The notes under the pieces are model-generated. The model saw only the letters and a list, made by a program, of their open reading frames with translations. It was not told where the DNA came from and did not search any database. Positions 1 through 7,485 of a DNA stretch of 48,459 bases are shown here, one piece after another; positions within the stretch are counted from its first letter, which is position 1, and every line of letters begins with the position of its first letter. The stretch covers positions 1-48,459 of IMG/VR virus record IMGVR_UViG_3300032316_000351; one strand, written 5' to 3'. The position numbers were made by a program, and so were the translations under genes. The DNA is from a virus.

Positions 1-19
1 ACCAGTTGAGAGTGCTCAA
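1..19 (-). CDS. Start of the next downstream gene (partial)
   Basis: Only the first six codons are inside the window. A TTG start at 19-17 is preceded by TTAGGAG with a six-base spacer, the same kind of ribosome site seen on the other genes, and the frame is open to the window edge (M-S-T-L-N-W). It begins 29 bases after the recombinase stop codon, as expected for the next gene of the same leftward operon. Product unknown. Confidence 0.45.
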
Positions 20-48
20 TGTATTCTCCTAACTCTGCCTGACGAGCG

Positions 49-843
49 TCAGGACGCCTTCTTCTTTGTTTCAGCTGCTGGCGCAACTGTCTCTTGCTTC
101 GGGCCGAACACGATGTCGAGCATACGCTCGATCGACAGGTTTTCCTGCTCAACGACACCGCCGAGCCTTCCTTGCACGCGCTCGCCGGCTTCGTACAACG
201 GCGTGCGCTCAACGTACATCCGGCGCACACGGTAAGGCCCCTGTGTTGGATCCGGATTTGGAAATTCCTCGATTGTTACTGCGCCGAGGATGTCGTAGAA
301 ATACGGAGCCTGAATCGCGAGCTGCCCCTGCAGGTACGGCCGCGAGCGCCCGTCCTGTCCCGACCGTGCCATGGCAGTAAGGACCACGGCCTCGAGCGGC
401 GCGGTGGGGTGCATCGTCAGGTCACGCAGGTCACGCAGAAGCGCGCCCATGTGACGAAGAAGCTCGCCCCACTGCTGCTGGCTCATCTGCTGCTTGCCAG
501 CGATATTCTCAAGGCACTTCACCTGAAGCTCTGAGACAGAGTCGATGATGAGCGACTTGAACTGATGCTTACCAAGCTGAAGCCACTGAAACGTCTTCAG
601 CACAGTGTCGTAGTCGCGAATCTGAACAACACACGTGTCCCATGTGCCATCCGCGACCGGAGGCTCCTCGCGGAGCGGATCCCAGTACTTGACGACGATG
701 GGAAGGAAGCGATGGCCGCCTTCTACGTCGAGCATCAAGCGAGGGTACGGAGCAGTAACGGCGAATGTTGACTTTCCAACCTTGGCGCGCTAGGACTCGC
801 CGTAGACCATGATAGTCAATGATCGAGCAACGGCGTTTGTCAT
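49..843 (-). pseudogene. RecA-like NTPase, Sak4-type recombinase, interrupted by an amber codon in Walker A
   Basis: The reading frame starts at ATG 843, which overlaps the stop of the upstream HNH gene as ATGA and has a strong AAGGAGGTGG site. It runs to TGA at 49 (264 sense codons plus one internal stop). The protein resembles phage Sak4-type single-strand annealing recombinases: a P-loop near residues 15-26, a Walker B-like run (SLIIDSVSEL) and a long helical middle. Codon 18 is TAG (790-792), inside the P-loop. Removing the nine bases TAGCGCGCC would give G-E-S-K-V-G-K-S, a regular GxxxxGKS. The stretch downstream of the amber remains fully open for 230 codons and could be re-initiated at TTG 738 or ATG 735, but that product would lack the ATP-binding loop. 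TAG ends several other genes here (polymerase, thymidylate synthase homologue, GNAT), so general amber recoding is unlikely. I infer a damaged gene, a sequencing error or an unusual readthrough. Next to a Cas4/RecB-type nuclease the expected role is recombination. Confidence 0.7.
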
Positions 844-1451
844 TTGGCACCACCTCCTTCATGCGCCGCCTTAGCGACGCGTCCGGCAGTGATGGCTTTC
901 TTCCATCTCTGCATCTTTGTAGGGTCTTTCCGAGTCCAATGCGCGTCGCCGCGATTTTTCTCGGCTAGTTGTTTGTTATGAATAAGCATCCTAGCTTTAT
1001 TCTTTTCACTGTTTCGTCTAGCCTCTTGCATTTTTTCATTTTGCTCACGCGACATAGTTCTTTTTGCGTTTCGCCATGCGTCCACTGAATTGTCGCTCGG
1101 TGTGCCCCATGACAAATGATCTGGGTTAAGGCATTTGTTGTTGTCGCATGAGTGAAGCACCCACAGGCCTTCTGGCCGCTCTCCTCTGTAGATCGTGCAC
1201 ACTACAATATGAGCGCCAATACTAACTCCAGGCTCTGCAGTAATCTTGGGTATGTATTTGTAGTTAGGGTACCCAGAGTACTCCCAGCAGCTAGTCTTAT
1301 CGCCTGCAGTTACATTTAGAACCGAGTGGATATTTTCTATCGTCACTTCGCCTTGACAAGTCGCGAGATGCATTGAATACGCCTTAGGGCCTCTCATAGG
1401 AGAGAGGCAGCGCACGCAAGTATATCCGCGTCTAGTCTGCGGCATTGTCAC
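840..1451 (-). CDS. HNH endonuclease with N-terminal zinc finger, probably a free-standing homing endonuclease
   Basis: 203 residues. The core matches HNH_3-type nucleases: C-W-E-Y-S-G, then AH-V-V, then a run ending VLHSCDNNKCLNPDHLSWGT followed by SDN, which supplies the H-N-H residues and nearby cysteines. Residues 12-32 form C-x2-C-x12-H-x3-C, a likely zinc finger. The C-terminal third is Lys/Arg rich, as in DNA-binding tails. GTG 1451 overlaps the upstream stop as GTGA and has AAAGGA five bases before it; ATG 1445 is an alternative. The gene lies directly upstream of the interrupted recombinase. By eye it is more A+T rich than its neighbours, which fits a mobile nuclease gene. A role in phage DNA processing cannot be excluded. 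Confidence 0.8.
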   Translation of the reverse strand: MTMPQTRRGYTCVRCLSPMRGPKAYSMHLATCQGEVTIENIHSVLNVTAGDKTSCWEYSGYPNYKYIPKITAEPGVSIGAHIVVCTIYRGERPEGLWVLHSCDNNKCLNPDHLSWGTPSDNSVDAWRNAKRTMSREQNEKMQEARRNSEKNKARMLIHNKQLAEKNRGDAHWTRKDPTKMQRWKKAITAGRVAKAAHEGGGAK

Positions 1452-2371
1452 TCAGTTCCTTTCTTTTCGGTTTCGTAGTAACCATATGGGTCGGCTACTT
1501 CGAACATTTCAGAAATTGCCTGCTCTGCTGCGCTGCCATCGTCAATCATGTGGCACACGGTATAGAACTGACATTTCCAGCTACAGTCGCGGCTAGGCCG
1601 CGGATACGCAACGAACGCGGGGTCCTCGCCGTCGTCAAGCGCCTTTCGCGCGCGCATAAGATCAGCGATAGTGCCATGGATGCGCTTCCAAAACGAGCGC
1701 AGCGTGAACACATTATGCCGAACCTCGACTTGCTCATAGAACGGCGGCTTAGCGTTGGCAGAGCGCTTTACTTTCTTGAGAAGAGTAAAGATACCACCGT
1801 CGCAGCGTTCGCCGTCTTGGTTGGTCGTTGCCTCGAGCAGCATATATGTAAGAATCTGCTCGTTCATGTGAGACATCTTGTTGAAATCAGTGAATGAACC
1901 GCCGACGGTTTTAAAGTCGCGAAAGAAACGCACACCATCCGCCTTGCGACGAACGCGCATGTCAAGCTTGCCCTGGAGCTCGACCTCACCGTTGAACAGC
2001 GGAGCGATGATGACCTCTTCGGTGGAGATCATCTCAAGCTCGAGGTCGATGCCTTCGTCATCAACCCACTGAAGATAGCCCTCGAGCATGATGCGCCCGA
2101 GCTCGGCCTCATTGTCAAGGTCGTGAGTGTCACGCCACTGCTCGGTTAGGATTTCCTTGTCCCGTTCGACAAGATTCGCGTGCGCCTCGAGAAGCGGCGT
2201 GCCCTGCGAGTAGTACTCATCGAGCGCGGCATGAATTCGCGTGCCGAGCGCAAGGGCGCCAGTAAAGTCCTTAGATCGCGGCTGCAGGCGACGGTAGTAC
2301 GTAAGCCACCACTTTCGCCTGCAGTCCTTGAACGTCTGAATCTCAGAGTTTGATAGTCGCACTACACTCAC
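1448..2371 (-). CDS. Cas4/RecB-like PD-(D/E)XK exonuclease
   Basis: 307 residues. The start region (LSNSEIQTFKDCRRKWWLTY) is the typical opening of Cas4/RecB-family nucleases. GTRIHAALDEYY gives the conserved His, ELQGKLDM-R the first acidic residue, and FFRDFKT the D-x-K pair of the PD-(D/E)XK site. Cysteine 17 and the C-terminal cluster C-S-W-K-C-x5-C match the four cysteines that hold an iron-sulphur cluster in Cas4/AddB-type enzymes. The GTG start at 2371 overlaps the helicase stop by four bases. In phages this family supplies 5' or 3' resection for recombination and replication. Its position just before a Sak4-type recombinase suggests an exonuclease-annealase pair, but the recombinase is broken here. 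Confidence 0.85.
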   Translation of the reverse strand: MSVVRLSNSEIQTFKDCRRKWWLTYYRRLQPRSKDFTGALALGTRIHAALDEYYSQGTPLLEAHANLVERDKEILTEQWRDTHDLDNEAELGRIMLEGYLQWVDDEGIDLELEMISTEEVIIAPLFNGEVELQGKLDMRVRRKADGVRFFRDFKTVGGSFTDFNKMSHMNEQILTYMLLEATTNQDGERCDGGIFTLLKKVKRSANAKPPFYEQVEVRHNVFTLRSFWKRIHGTIADLMRARKALDDGEDPAFVAYPRPSRDCSWKCQFYTVCHMIDDGSAAEQAISEMFEVADPYGYYETEKKGTE

Positions 2372-4173
2372 AGTTTACCGTCCTTGTCGTCACGAAGCAT
2401 TGAGAGCAGCTGCGCCTTGTCGCGCACGATCTGCTCGAAGTTGTCTGCCTTAGTGTCGAGCGCCTGGATCACGCGCTCCTCGATGGTGCCGTCGGTTACG
2501 TAGTCGGTGATGATGATTGAGTCGTGAATCTCTGACCCGATTCGGTGCACGCGATCAAGCGCCTGCTTGTAGTCGACAAGCGACCAGGGGCGCTGCAGCA
2601 TAACAAGACGGCGCGCCGCGGTAAGCGTGACTCCGACACCGCCGGCCTGCGCTGTAAACAAGATCCACTTGATATGGCCGGACTGAAAGTCGTCAATCGC
2701 CTCTTGTCGCTCGTCCTCGCTCTGTGCGCCTGTAATAAGGCCGTGCGGAATCTTGGCCTTTGCCATCGCGGCGCTGAGAATCTCAATAAGCTGGCGAGAC
2801 ACGGCACATACCGCGACGCTGTCGTCGCCAAAGTCGCCGGACGAGATGTCGTTCATAAGCGCGTCGACCTTGGCGGACGGCTCGGCAAGAATGACACGCG
2901 GCTCGCCTGTTGTCTCGTCGACTATAATCTCTGCGTACGATGACGCGAACTGCAGCAGTCGCGTTGTCTGCGTGAGCGGGCTTGGCGCGGTAAGCGCCTC
3001 GCCGCCTTCCAGCTCGGCGATCATCATGTCGCGCATCTGCTGATACGCCTTCTTCTGCTTGGTAGACATCTCGACGTCGCGGCGCTCGAACATGACCTCG
3101 GGTAGCCAAGGCAGCACGCGTTTCTTGAGCATGCGGCGCATGCGCGGGTTGATTGCCGCGTAGAACTCGTCCTGCATGTGCGGCTTGACGCCGAGCACCA
3201 TCATGCCGCCGAATGCGTTGAGCATCGTGTCGACGGTGCGGTCGACCCAGCGGGTTTTGCTCGGCCATTCCTCTGGCGACAACCAGTGCAGGATCGACCA
3301 GAGATCGAGAACGTCATTGGCGATGGGAGTTCCGGTAAGCGCGAACCGGAATGGCGCATCGGCGGTTGCCGCCCAGAGCGCACGAGTCTGCTTGCTCTTG
3401 GGCTCCTTGCTGCGGTGGATCTCGTCGGCGATAACGCTCTGGAACTCGATCTCATTGAGTTCCCGCTTGTGAACCTCGCAGCGGTTTTCGCTGACGCGCT
3501 CGTCGTGGCCACCGCAGTCCTTGCATCGAGCGAGGGCAACCGATCCGTAGGAGGCGAGGCGCGAGTGCGACCGTAGAGATTCCCAGTTGATGACGTACAC
3601 GTCCGCGTCGGTGGCTAGTTGCTTACGGCGCTGACCGGCGCTGCCCTTGATGACCTCGACGTTGACGCCTGGCCACCAGAGCGCGAACTCACGCATCCAA
3701 TTCTTCTTGAGCGTGTTCGGGCAGACGATGAGCGCGGGAAACACCTGCTCGCCCTGGTCCTGCAGGCGCTTGAGCGCGCGGATTGCCTGCGCGGTTTTGC
3801 CAAGGCCGGGCTCGTCGGCAAGAAGTGCGCGCCGCGCGGTGGCCAGGAACTCAACTCCTGCCCTCTGGTGGGGAAACAGGTCGGTATTGTCGCCATTCTC
3901 GAGGGTCTCTAGGTCACGAAGAGCGTTGGCCGGGTCGATACGCGTAGTGCGCTCATTTGCGGCCCATTCGGTCAATCTAGGCCCAATTTCGAGGTCGTCA
4001 CGGAACGTGGATCTAAGGGCTAAGCACGTGGCCCACCCCAGCGGCGCGCGCCATACCTGTTCTTTGTTAGACCAGCTCGCGCCGGGGATACTTTTACAGA
4101 GTTCTTTGTACCGCCATTCGGCATCAATCAGGATGGACTTGCCTTCGGCGTCCAGCTCTGTCTTTACTGTCAC
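2368..4173 (-). CDS. SNF2-type superfamily 2 helicase
   Basis: 601 residues from GTG 4173. I chose this start because GGAAGGAG lies seven bases before it; the frame is also open from ATG 4203. An N-terminal region with an SPxxx-W-S-N-K-E-like stretch resembles HARP-like modules. Motif I is DEPGLGKT (about residue 125), motif II is DEIH, motif III is ALTGTP, and motifs V and VI are GGVGVTLTAA and QALDRVHRIG. A probable zinc-binding insertion (C-x2-C followed by C-x2-H) sits between motifs Ia and II. The enzyme is an ATP-driven DNA translocase, probably used in replication restart or fork remodelling. It is co-transcribed with the RecB-like nuclease and follows the resolvase. Confidence 0.9.
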   Translation of the reverse strand: MTVKTELDAEGKSILIDAEWRYKELCKSIPGASWSNKEQVWRAPLGWATCLALRSTFRDDLEIGPRLTEWAANERTTRIDPANALRDLETLENGDNTDLFPHQRAGVEFLATARRALLADEPGLGKTAQAIRALKRLQDQGEQVFPALIVCPNTLKKNWMREFALWWPGVNVEVIKGSAGQRRKQLATDADVYVINWESLRSHSRLASYGSVALARCKDCGGHDERVSENRCEVHKRELNEIEFQSVIADEIHRSKEPKSKQTRALWAATADAPFRFALTGTPIANDVLDLWSILHWLSPEEWPSKTRWVDRTVDTMLNAFGGMMVLGVKPHMQDEFYAAINPRMRRMLKKRVLPWLPEVMFERRDVEMSTKQKKAYQQMRDMMIAELEGGEALTAPSPLTQTTRLLQFASSYAEIIVDETTGEPRVILAEPSAKVDALMNDISSGDFGDDSVAVCAVSRQLIEILSAAMAKAKIPHGLITGAQSEDERQEAIDDFQSGHIKWILFTAQAGGVGVTLTAARRLVMLQRPWSLVDYKQALDRVHRIGSEIHDSIIITDYVTDGTIEERVIQALDTKADNFEQIVRDKAQLLSMLRDDKDGKL

Positions 4174-4257
4174 TCTGTCACTCCTTCCGTATGCAGATAA
4201 CATACTAACACAAAATCTGCAGAAAGTAATAGTTTTTCTCTAGTATGTACAGATTTT
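4174..4257 (-). promoter_or_regulatory. A+T-rich gap with interleaved inverted repeats
   Basis: This is one of the few real gaps on the left. Two perfect 8-base inverted repeats interleave: ACATACTA (4200-4207) with TAGTATGT (4241-4248), and AAAATCTG (4212-4219) with CAGATTTT (4250-4257). A third partial copy (ATCTGCATAC, minus strand, 4198-4189) follows. The order A-B-A'-B' permits either tandem operators or an RNA pseudoknot. No convincing -35/-10 pair was found. Position suggests control of the helicase, nuclease and recombinase genes downstream. Confidence 0.4.
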
Positions 4258-4725
4258 TTACTGGAGTAGTACTATTGGCTTCCAGCCAAGCTTCACTAAA
4301 CGCAACAAACCGTGCCGTATCGAGTCGTTCGCATGGCCACCACCACCGACGTGCCAGGTGCCGACCTTGCGAAGCGCGTCGTTGGGAAACATCTTCTTGG
4401 CGTCCGACGGCGACTGAAACACAAGCTTGGTATCGGGATCTACATCATGGTCGCGCATGATCTGCTTGAGGGCGCCGATCTGCTCAAGACTAAACGGCGC
4501 TTGCGAGTTACGCACGGTCTGAGCGTTGATGATGAACCGCTCACACACGACGTCAAACTCAACGTTGTTCGCCGCGCACCATGCAAACGTGTCGCGGACC
4601 GGGCGAGCAAACTCATCGGGCTGGTATTCGCCAGAGGACAACAACGCTGGCTCATTGTTCAGGCTAAGAAAGCTGATTCCGGTAGTTTTACCAGGATCAA
4701 CCGCGAGTACGTACTTCACGTCCAT
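4258..4725 (-). CDS. RuvC-like Holliday junction resolvase
   Basis: 155 residues from ATG 4725, preceded by AAAGGTGG; the longer open frame upstream only reads through the neighbouring gene. Residues 4-16 (KYVLAVDPGKTTG) are the typical RuvC beta-strand with catalytic Asp10. Glu62 lies in VVCERF, and GHANDSIRH near residue 134 supplies the last acidic residue of the RNase H-like fold. The protein should cut branched DNA during recombination or before packaging. It overlaps the deaminase gene by ten bases and belongs to the same operon. Confidence 0.85.
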   Translation of the reverse strand: MDVKYVLAVDPGKTTGISFLSLNNEPALLSSGEYQPDEFARPVRDTFAWCAANNVEFDVVCERFIINAQTVRNSQAPFSLEQIGALKQIMRDHDVDPDTKLVFQSPSDAKKMFPNDALRKVGTWHVGGGGHANDSIRHGLLRLVKLGWKPIVLLQ

Positions 4726-5039
4726 ACCACCTTTGCTACTCCGATACGAGCAAGACGGCGTTCGCACCGCTTGCATGGCTTTGACAGCGCAGGGGTGCCG
4801 TCTCTGCCAACACGCGCGACATACACTGTTGCGCCGCGCGCACGTGTGCCAGCTGCAGCAATTGCCGCCTCTTCCGCGTGAACATGCGCGATACGCCAGT
4901 TATTCGAGTCCGCTGTGCGAAGTTTCTTATTCGTCGCCTCAGCCACAACCACCCCGTTCGCGACGACAACGCACCCATGCCGATACCTGCACTTGCTTGT
5001 CGCAGCAATGTCAATTGCCATTTCAAGAAAGCGATTCAC
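4716..5039 (-). CDS. Small zinc-dependent cytidine/deoxycytidylate deaminase-like protein
   Basis: 107 residues, GTG start overlapping the previous stop as GTGA. The zinc site is plain: H54-A-E56 within HVHAEE, and P88-C89-K-R-C92. These supply the His, catalytic Glu and two Cys ligands of the cytidine deaminase superfamily. It is much shorter than the second deaminase at 7466-7960 and lacks that protein's extra cysteines, so the two are probably not redundant copies. The substrate cannot be read from the sequence: a free nucleotide (dCMP or deoxycytidine) is most likely, and a nucleic acid base is possible. Confidence 0.75.
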   Translation of the reverse strand: MNRFLEMAIDIAATSKCRYRHGCVVVANGVVVAEATNKKLRTADSNNWRIAHVHAEEAAIAAAGTRARGATVYVARVGRDGTPALSKPCKRCERRLARIGVAKVVWT

Positions 5040-5644
5040 TTTTCTGACCTGCTCTGTATGTACTCCAAAGCCAGTGCGATAAGCTCCGCGCTGTCCGAAA
5101 AGTGACCAAGACCAGAATTACACCTAAAGCATAGAATACCGCGAATCTTTCCCGTATCGTGATTGTGGTCTATACACGCGACATTTTTTCTAGTCTCGGC
5201 TTTGGAGCCGTGTGGAACAAGTTTAGTTTTACAGATCTCACATTTGCCTTCTGACCGAGCAAAGACGTTGAACATTTCTTCTGGGGTAACGCCAAATGAC
5301 TTAGCGTACTGTGACAGCTTGAAATGATGTCTACAGTATCCTTTCATATGATGATCTTGCTCGCAGAGCTCGACCTCACATAGCGTGCCGCAGCGTCTTT
5401 TGTGCCTAGACATAGAATGGCTTCTGGTCTGAAGCCCGCAGACTGCGCACTCAAGAATTTCTAACTTCGAGAAACCTTTCTTACGCTTCTCTATGATTTC
5501 CGGGTCTGCCCCCTGTCGCTTAGCTGTCTCGCTGGCAGCTGCGCGCCTATCCTGATCTTCCCATGCTTTTTTCTGTGCTTTAGACCGAGCGATCTTGGTT
5601 TTCGGCTTAGCACAGTGCGCCTTTAGCGACTCAGAGCGTGACAT
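5036..5644 (-). CDS. Endonuclease VII-like nuclease with N-terminal zinc finger
   Basis: 202 residues. The C-terminal half carries the recombination endonuclease VII signature: C-x2-C (CEIC), then IDHNHDTGKIRGILC and F-R-C-N, with His and Asn catalytic positions. A middle C-x4-C/C-x2-H region probably binds zinc as well. Residues 66-85 form C-x2-C-x11-H-x3-C, a finger almost identical in spacing to that of the HNH protein at 840-1451. The basic N-terminus and relatively A+T-rich composition by eye suggest a free-standing mobile nuclease inserted between polymerase and deaminase. A genuine junction-resolving role is the alternative, although a RuvC-like enzyme is already present. Confidence 0.8.
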   Translation of the reverse strand: MSRSESLKAHCAKPKTKIARSKAQKKAWEDQDRRAAASETAKRQGADPEIIEKRKKGFSKLEILECAVCGLQTRSHSMSRHKRRCGTLCEVELCEQDHHMKGYCRHHFKLSQYAKSFGVTPEEMFNVFARSEGKCEICKTKLVPHGSKAETRKNVACIDHNHDTGKIRGILCFRCNSGLGHFSDSAELIALALEYIQSRSEK

Positions 5645-5646
5645 AT

Positions 5647-7485
5647 CTAGTACTTATCTCCCCAGTTTTCAAGAGGGCCGTCGACGTCAGCCGAAAGCGG
5701 TACCGCCCAACCTTCAGTAGTTGTCATACACTCGCGCACCGTGCGCATAACCTCATCGGTGCTACCTCTCGGGCACTGAAGCACAATCTCATCGTGTACA
5801 GGAACAATAAGGAGCTCGGTTAAATCTGCTTGATCCATTTTGATCAAGTTTGCCTTAAAGATCTCCGCTGCCGATGACTGGACCAAGTAATTCACAAGAG
5901 TGTACACTCTATTGTCGTCGCATGGTACTCGCCGGCCAGTCCACGTTCGGACGTATCCTTGCCCTTCCTCGCGCAGCCTGCGCATTCCGACATCTTCAAT
6001 TTGCTTCGTGAACATTGAAACTCCCGGAAACCTGCGATCAAACGCGTCTGAGACAGACTGCATTTGCTCTTTAGACACGCCGGCGGTGAGTGCCTGCTTC
6101 GCGACGCCTGCGCCGTACAGACGACCATAGACCATGCTTTTCACGAGACCGCGGCGCTTATCGCTCTTCGACATTGACGGGTCGCCGTACACTTCACGGC
6201 CAATTTCCGTGAACGGGTCACTTCCAGTAGCATCGGCATGGTTGAACATGTTGATCAGTCCCGGGTCGTTTGACATGCTAGCTACAAGGCGAAACTCAAC
6301 CTGGTCGAGATCGGACGTGATAATCACGTGATCCTCGTCCTTTGGAATGAAGGCGGTACGCACCGTGTCATCGCCCTTCGGCAGCGTCTGCAGCGCAGGG
6401 TCGGTAATCGACATCCGCGACGTGCGCGCGCCTAGAGTCTTCACCGACGGGTGAACTACGCCTCCGATAGACTTGGTTAGGAAGTTCAGAAAGTACGTGT
6501 TCGCTAGCTTGTCAGCCTTGCGCTGCTTGAGCACGATCTCAGCGAGCTGCCTAACCTCATCATTGCCGTTGATCTGCAGCATCTTGAGTTGGTCCTTGGT
6601 ACACGACTTCTGCCCGGTAGGAGTTGTCTCCGTGATCTCAGCTCCGAGCTTCTCGAACAAGCGCACAAGCTGAATGTTGCTCGTGATCGAGGTTCCGCCG
6701 TACGTCTGCTTTGCCCAGGTCTTAACCGACTCGGCGTACTCGGTGAGCTCATCGTACTTGCGCTGCGAGTACTCAAGATCTACGCGGGCGCCATTGAGTT
6801 CCATCCGCGTGACAATTCGACGCGCAGCCATCTCGAGCTCGTACGGACGGTTATACGCACCGCCAGGGCCGCACTTGTCCCAGAACATGTGCCACAGGCG
6901 CATCGTCAAGACTGTGTCAAGCGCACCGTACGCCCAGTATGGTTGGAAGTTGATCGGGACAGTGCCCCACGTCCAGCCGTTCTTGGCCAGCTCTGCGTCG
7001 AGTGTGTCCTGCAGCGCCACCGCGCGACCGTCGACGTGCAACGCCGCGAGGCGCTTGAGCGCGCCGGAGCCGAGAGGGTCGATGATATGAGCCATGATCA
7101 TCGTGTCATGCGCACGGTGCCATGGCATTTCCCAGCGTGATCGAATGTCAAACCAGCGCGCCTCGAATGCGATGTTGTGACACACGATCGGGCCGTCGAA
7201 TCGGTCCATGGCCTCGTAGAAGACGCCGGACCATTCCTCCCATGGAATCGACCAGCCCTGCATCCCATCGCCGACTTGCACCAGGCGCAGACGCCCGTGC
7301 CATGGTGACAGCGCATCACCGCGAGGGTTGCCAGGTAGCTCCCCGGTCTCAGTGTCAATCGCGATTGCGTTTAGCGGGCGGCGCTCACCGAGCCAGCGAA
7401 GAAACTCACCGGCCTTGTCGACAGAGTCGACAAGGTGAAGCTGAACATCCGCTAGGTTATTTGTTTCAGACAAGCGAGTCAACAT
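5647..7485 (-). CDS. Family A DNA polymerase with 3'-5' exonuclease domain
   Basis: About 612 residues if it starts at ATG 7485; TTG 7482 and TTG 7473 are possible alternatives. The open frame extends to 7644 only because it shadows the deaminase gene. Exonuclease motifs are AIDTETG (Asp44), CHNIAFEARW and YGALDTV. Polymerase motif A is DLDQVEFR (about 390), the O-helix is RRGLVKSMVYGRLYG (about 445), and motif C is VPVHDEIV (about 567). There is no 5'-3' exonuclease domain, as in T7-type and many actinophage replicative polymerases. A Tyr occupies the O-helix position equivalent to E. coli F762. It ends in TAG and is followed two bases later by the endonuclease VII-like gene. Confidence 0.95.
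   Translation of the reverse strand: MLTRLSETNNLADVQLHLVDSVDKAGEFLRWLGERRPLNAIAIDTETGELPGNPRGDALSPWHGRLRLVQVGDGMQGWSIPWEEWSGVFYEAMDRFDGPIVCHNIAFEARWFDIRSRWEMPWHRAHDTMIMAHIIDPLGSGALKRLAALHVDGRAVALQDTLDAELAKNGWTWGTVPINFQPYWAYGALDTVLTMRLWHMFWDKCGPGGAYNRPYELEMAARRIVTRMELNGARVDLEYSQRKYDELTEYAESVKTWAKQTYGGTSITSNIQLVRLFEKLGAEITETTPTGQKSCTKDQLKMLQINGNDEVRQLAEIVLKQRKADKLANTYFLNFLTKSIGGVVHPSVKTLGARTSRMSITDPALQTLPKGDDTVRTAFIPKDEDHVIITSDLDQVEFRLVASMSNDPGLINMFNHADATGSDPFTEIGREVYGDPSMSKSDKRRGLVKSMVYGRLYGAGVAKQALTAGVSKEQMQSVSDAFDRRFPGVSMFTKQIEDVGMRRLREEGQGYVRTWTGRRVPCDDNRVYTLVNYLVQSSAAEIFKANLIKMDQADLTELLIVPVHDEIVLQCPRGSTDEVMRTVRECMTTTEGWAVPLSADVDGPLENWGDKY

Follow-up and report, generated by a model that had tools for sequence, protein, structure and literature searches.

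A nine-base in-frame insert with an amber codon interrupts the Walker A loop of sak4 beside an HNH endonuclease gene in one phage lineage

In bacteriophage T4 a homing endonuclease gene lies beside gene 60, whose bypassed insert of 50 nt is described as possibly protective against the nuclease (PMC5009743), and T4 MobA is assigned to the HNH enzymes (PMC2988022). The locus reported here lies in a window of 48,459 nt, the whole of the DNA stretch that was analysed (IMG/VR virus record IMGVR_UViG_3300032316_000351). It resembles the mobA/gene 60 pair (PMC5009743) in that a homing endonuclease gene adjoins a gene with a short insert that opens with UAG after a sense codon. It differs in that the insert has 9 nt against the 50 nt of T4, in that a matched landing codon, a special structure and a repetition of the insert among relatives are missing, and in that a full-length product is only putative.

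The closest named relative of the interrupted gene encodes the RecA-like recombinase of the Actinomycetia phage DSL-LC01 from Dishui Lake (84% protein identity), in which helicase, PD-(D/E)XK nuclease and Sak4 genes follow one another in the order also found in the window, where sak4 stands behind genes for a helicase and a Cas4-like nuclease. Unlike the window, DSL-LC01 and six other annotated actinophages have sak4 genes that are free of internal stops and whose Walker A loop is intact, and none has an annotated HNH gene at that place. The HNH gene of the window is similar to free-standing HNH homing endonucleases (phrog_1872, the T4 mob genes) in its HNH_3 domain and in separating two genes that are neighbours in relatives, whereas its target and activity are putative and its best matches among annotated phages show less than 60% identity. 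A literature search for a phage recombinase with a premature stop beside a homing endonuclease in metagenomes returned nothing related by title.

The amber codon in sak4 and its distribution

The locus comprises the following features (L001 is a second IMG/VR contig, and L002 and L003 are two further relatives).

49..843, minus strand: Sak4-type RecA-like recombinase gene, interrupted; codons 1-17, TAG, 246 open codons, TGA (translation, phrog_124, AAA_24)
784..792, minus strand: in-frame insert of nine bases that separates the Ser codon of the Walker A loop from the Lys codon and consists of TAG (790-792) and two further codons (missing in 79 of the best 80 relatives, identical in L001)
766..804 (approximate bounds), minus strand: Walker A region, YGES-(insert)-KVGKST (translation, relatives)
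817..1446 (approximate), no strand assigned: DNA without counterpart in L002 and L003, that is, the HNH gene, the new sak4 start and the first sak4 codons (blastn breakpoints 1447 and 816/783, boundary letters)
840..1451, minus strand: free-standing HNH endonuclease gene (HNH_3, E 1.7e-9; phrog_1872, E 1.9e-19), missing at this site in all other relatives examined
1448..2371, minus strand: Cas4-like PD-(D/E)XK exonuclease gene, the conserved upstream neighbour (PDDEXK_1, E 4.6e-23; phrog_1218)

Translation of the minus strand from ATG 843, which is preceded by the strong Shine-Dalgarno sequence AAGGAGG, gives MTNAVARSLTIMVYGES and then meets TAG at 790-792, within the Walker A loop; behind it the frame goes on as RAKVGKSTFAV and stays free of stops for 246 codons up to TGA at 49-51. 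When read through, the frame matches the Sak4-like family phrog_124 (E 4.9e-29) and, among Pfam profiles, AAA_24 (E 1.4e-14). The initial annotation had named a Sak4-type recombinase starting at ATG 843 behind an excellent ribosome site, and both statements agree with these results; its view that the frame stays open past the TAG also stands, the 230 codons that it counted being slightly too few. AlphaFold gave poor models both for the read-through frame (mean pLDDT 41.5) and for the intact protein of L003 (40.4), and these were left out.

IMG/VR relatives were searched with the 246 residues behind the TAG, and the best 80 of 250 loci were compared. In 79 of these best 80 the sequence reads YGES-KVGKS[T/S] without a gap, and the one remaining locus, L001, carries the same nine bases letter for letter, so that the pattern GxxxxGK[S/T] is broken by the insert in the window and in L001. 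Since the relatives read YGES-KVGKS without the nine bases, the insert-free form is taken to be ancestral. It had been proposed from the window alone that a three-codon insertion both terminates translation and upsets the spacing of GxxxxGKS, with an alignment of close relatives as the check, and that alignment bears the proposal out. A scan of the whole of IMG/VR for a Walker A motif gapped by 3-33 extra nt found one stretch only, on the contig of L001, and gaps of 34-64 extra nt gave no stretch, the ungapped motif being present in at least 120 stretches.

Three sources of the insert were considered and rejected. By inspection the nine bases copy neither flank, which excludes a tandem duplication as well as the 9-bp target-site scar of a transposon, and copying from elsewhere in the window was discarded because the 11-letter neighbourhood has 25 matches (with up to two mismatches) where 26.4 are expected by chance.

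The L001 contig (6393 nt) equals window positions 37-6429 save at positions 445 and 466, two differences that lie 21 nt apart, are both silent in the sak4 frame and fall outside the insert. Window and L001 form one lineage, possibly from related samples; no publication on the sample of L001 was found. Because the same nine bases occur in two non-identical contigs, a single sequencing error is unlikely. An assembly or sequencing artefact of another kind, such as a chimera common to related data sets, would agree with the fact that both carriers break off at nearly one spot (window position 1 and, for L001, window position 37), but it is hard to reconcile with the recurrence of the nine bases, unchanged, in a contig with SNPs elsewhere and with the lack of any other noticed lesion in the window's major genes, and we regard it as unlikely. 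The assembly error considered in the initial annotation thus loses weight through a second contig with two nearby SNPs and the same insert, albeit one that may stem from a related sample. At its edge (1-50) the window includes only some 20 nt of the gene that follows sak4.

The HNH gene beside the interrupted sak4

An HNH gene had been reported to adjoin the interrupted sak4, and its HNH_3 match indeed lies directly upstream. The first possible start of this gene is GTG 1451, although ATG 1445, at the position where sak4 starts in the relatives, is the more likely one. It is flanked directly by the Cas4-like gene on one side and by sak4 on the other, two genes that are adjacent in relatives that lack it. 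Of 202 loci, which are redundant with several per contig, six had no Cas4-like match and 196 had both neighbours; the distance from the Cas4-like gene to sak4 was 45-122 nt in 192 of the latter and 662 nt in the other four, namely the window and three loci of the L001 contig. In blastn comparisons L002 and L003 align with the window up to 1447 and resume from 783 or 816, and at the left boundary the HNH start occupies the place of the relatives' sak4 start while the sak4 of the window has a new one. Only two of 15 records contain phrog_1872, the window and the contig of L047, in which it is far from sak4, and close relatives of the HNH protein were found in IMG/VR on the contig of L001 alone.

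The most likely explanation, favoured over a new regulatory trick, is a natural and recent knock-out, and on balance we think it probable that the interrupted sak4 represents a genuine loss-of-function allele of recent origin in a lineage with a newly acquired HNH gene. This is supported by the confinement of both insert and HNH gene to the window and L001 among the relatives examined; the conserved frame behind the TAG fits a recent event, and since a 17-residue product is not expected to function, a recent knock-out is the likeliest reading. In this lineage, which belongs to a freshwater-type actinobacterial phage group, a free-standing gene for a putative HNH homing endonuclease has been inserted next to sak4 on its Cas4-like side; it occupies the former translation start of sak4, which now has a new one. 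The nine-base insert of the same lineage, whose first codon is TAG, would end translation after 17 codons, and even if the stop were read through the spacing of the Walker A loop would still be wrong, so that the allele should yield no ATP-dependent Sak4 protein. The phage would depend on host recombination, on another recombinase encoded outside the fragment or on intact copies in co-infecting phages. The insert itself most likely arose through a minor mistake of repair at the 5' end of sak4, possibly made during HNH invasion or cleavage there. If the knock-out is real, an uncultured phage lineage persists although its recombinase, next to a homing nuclease, is broken, and the locus would illustrate what homing naturally costs, or causes as a by-product, in a gene that some phages cannot do without.

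A narrower form of the knock-out explanation, in line with the homing scar raised as a possibility in the initial annotation, holds that the HNH enzyme cuts the conserved DNA that encodes the Walker A loop and that the nine-base product of repair protects its carrier, nuclease and immunity mark forming one cassette. Among the relatives examined neither the HNH gene nor the insert is found without the other, some 50 nt separate the insert from the end of the HNH gene, and a second lineage-specific nuclease gene, for an Endonuclease VII (5036-5644), is found in the same operon; moreover, conserved sequences are described as the usual targets of homing endonucleases (PMC2988022), and the insert of T4 gene 60 may give protection against the adjacent endonuclease (PMC5009743). 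Against this, the association comes from one lineage, the target of the HNH enzyme is a candidate only, and an element that destroys the recombinase of its host phage would presumably hamper its own spread unless the RecA of the bacterial host serves instead. In addition, the divergence of sak4 between the window and its relatives is not raised beside the HNH gene, no step indicative of a co-conversion tract being found there. We therefore hold this form to be possible but doubtful. With a single lineage the arrival of the HNH gene and that of the insert cannot be ordered or causally linked, and a causal connection between them is plausible but unproven.

Possible routes of translation past the amber codon

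Decoding of the TAG by a suppressor tRNA or a reassigned code might explain why the frame behind the TAG is open and conserved, and since the window is a fragment a tRNA gene could sit outside it. However, TAG is an ordinary terminator here, ending 11 of the 32 major genes of the window, by which a reassigned code was rejected. No tRNA gene was found in the window, none of the 11 tRNA places detected in five of 14 records has a stop anticodon, and the part of DSL-LC01 covered (45 kb and 49 kb, with 45001-79999 excluded) has three ordinary tRNAs only. As far as the window fragment and the examined relatives go, a suppressor tRNA is improbable. A readthrough product would still have a loop three residues too long, and we regard readthrough as very unlikely.

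Ribosome bypassing as in T4 gene 60, with take-off at the UCC before the UAG and resumption nine bases on, would restore a normal Walker A loop. The UAG directly follows this candidate take-off codon, the insert length is a multiple of three, landing at GCC would give KVGKST next, and an HNH gene adjoins as in T4. On the other hand, no in-frame UCC or UCU landing codon was present in the stretch scanned and GCC pairs at two of three letters only; the scans of IMG/VR for gapped motifs revealed no further case; and the RNA of 121 nt has no unusual structure (z -0.50, with 55 of 200 shuffles folding as well), which led us to reject a structured bypass signal. Bypassing appears highly improbable, and the deliberate regulation considered in the initial annotation, whether by readthrough or by bypass, finds no support in an ordinary stop codon, a window without tRNA, an unremarkable fold and an unmatched landing codon.

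The most elaborate possibility, that a single mobile cassette comprises the HNH gene and the nine-base insert, the latter being protective, and that ribosomes hop from UCC to GCC (with two of three letters pairing) to make an intact Walker A loop, as a minimal independent counterpart of T4 mobA/gene 60, is extremely improbable. If the hop or the protection were true, the locus would be a second and minimal example in which a nuclease goes together with translational bypass.

Two further routes were discarded. A group I intron was rejected, an intron RNA search of positions 1-3000 having returned two chance-level snoRNA matches only. Reinitiation just past the TAG would have to use the next in-frame starts, TTG/ATG at 733-738, with loss of the whole Walker A loop and from a place with no evident ribosome site.

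Sak4 function and operon neighbours

DNA binding and annealing by Sak4 of phage HK620 are reported to be ATP-dependent (PMC5928155), and Sak4 of the staphylococcal phage phi11 is described as essential for phage growth (PMC5499656), so that complete loss of the protein would be expected to carry a cost. PA73 Sak4 mutated at the Walker A lysine is nevertheless described as retaining much or part of its recombineering activity (PMC5928155, PMC5499656), and the loop might therefore matter less, though the same could not be said of the stop.

Behind the TAG the window differs from L002 by six amino-acid-changing and 109 silent codons and from L003 by 10 and 94, respectively, L002 and L003 differing from each other by seven and 76. 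Split by hand, the window branch carries about 4.5 changed and 63.5 silent codons, and this split of the L002/L003 codon differences gave no sign of relaxed selection on it. The conservation of the downstream frame relative to L002 and L003 accords with the earlier suggestion of a recent insertion with no decay behind it. A recent insertion would account for the absence of relaxation, but continued expression would do so equally, and the open downstream frame of both carriers, with only two silent differences, would also fit ongoing selection, which argues against a knock-out.

The Endonuclease VII-like gene mentioned above (minus strand; PF02945, E 4.1e-17) lies between the DNA polymerase gene and the next gene; it is missing at this place in L002 and L003, was found in two of 16 records only (the window and the contig of L001) and is a second lineage-specific nuclease gene in the sak4 operon. 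In Gordonia phage Phendrix (193-2492) the genes for helicase, exonuclease and Sak4 are interspersed with small extra genes and with one for a GIY-YIG endonuclease, and from this case the helicase/exonuclease/Sak4 operon may be a repeated target for homing nucleases.
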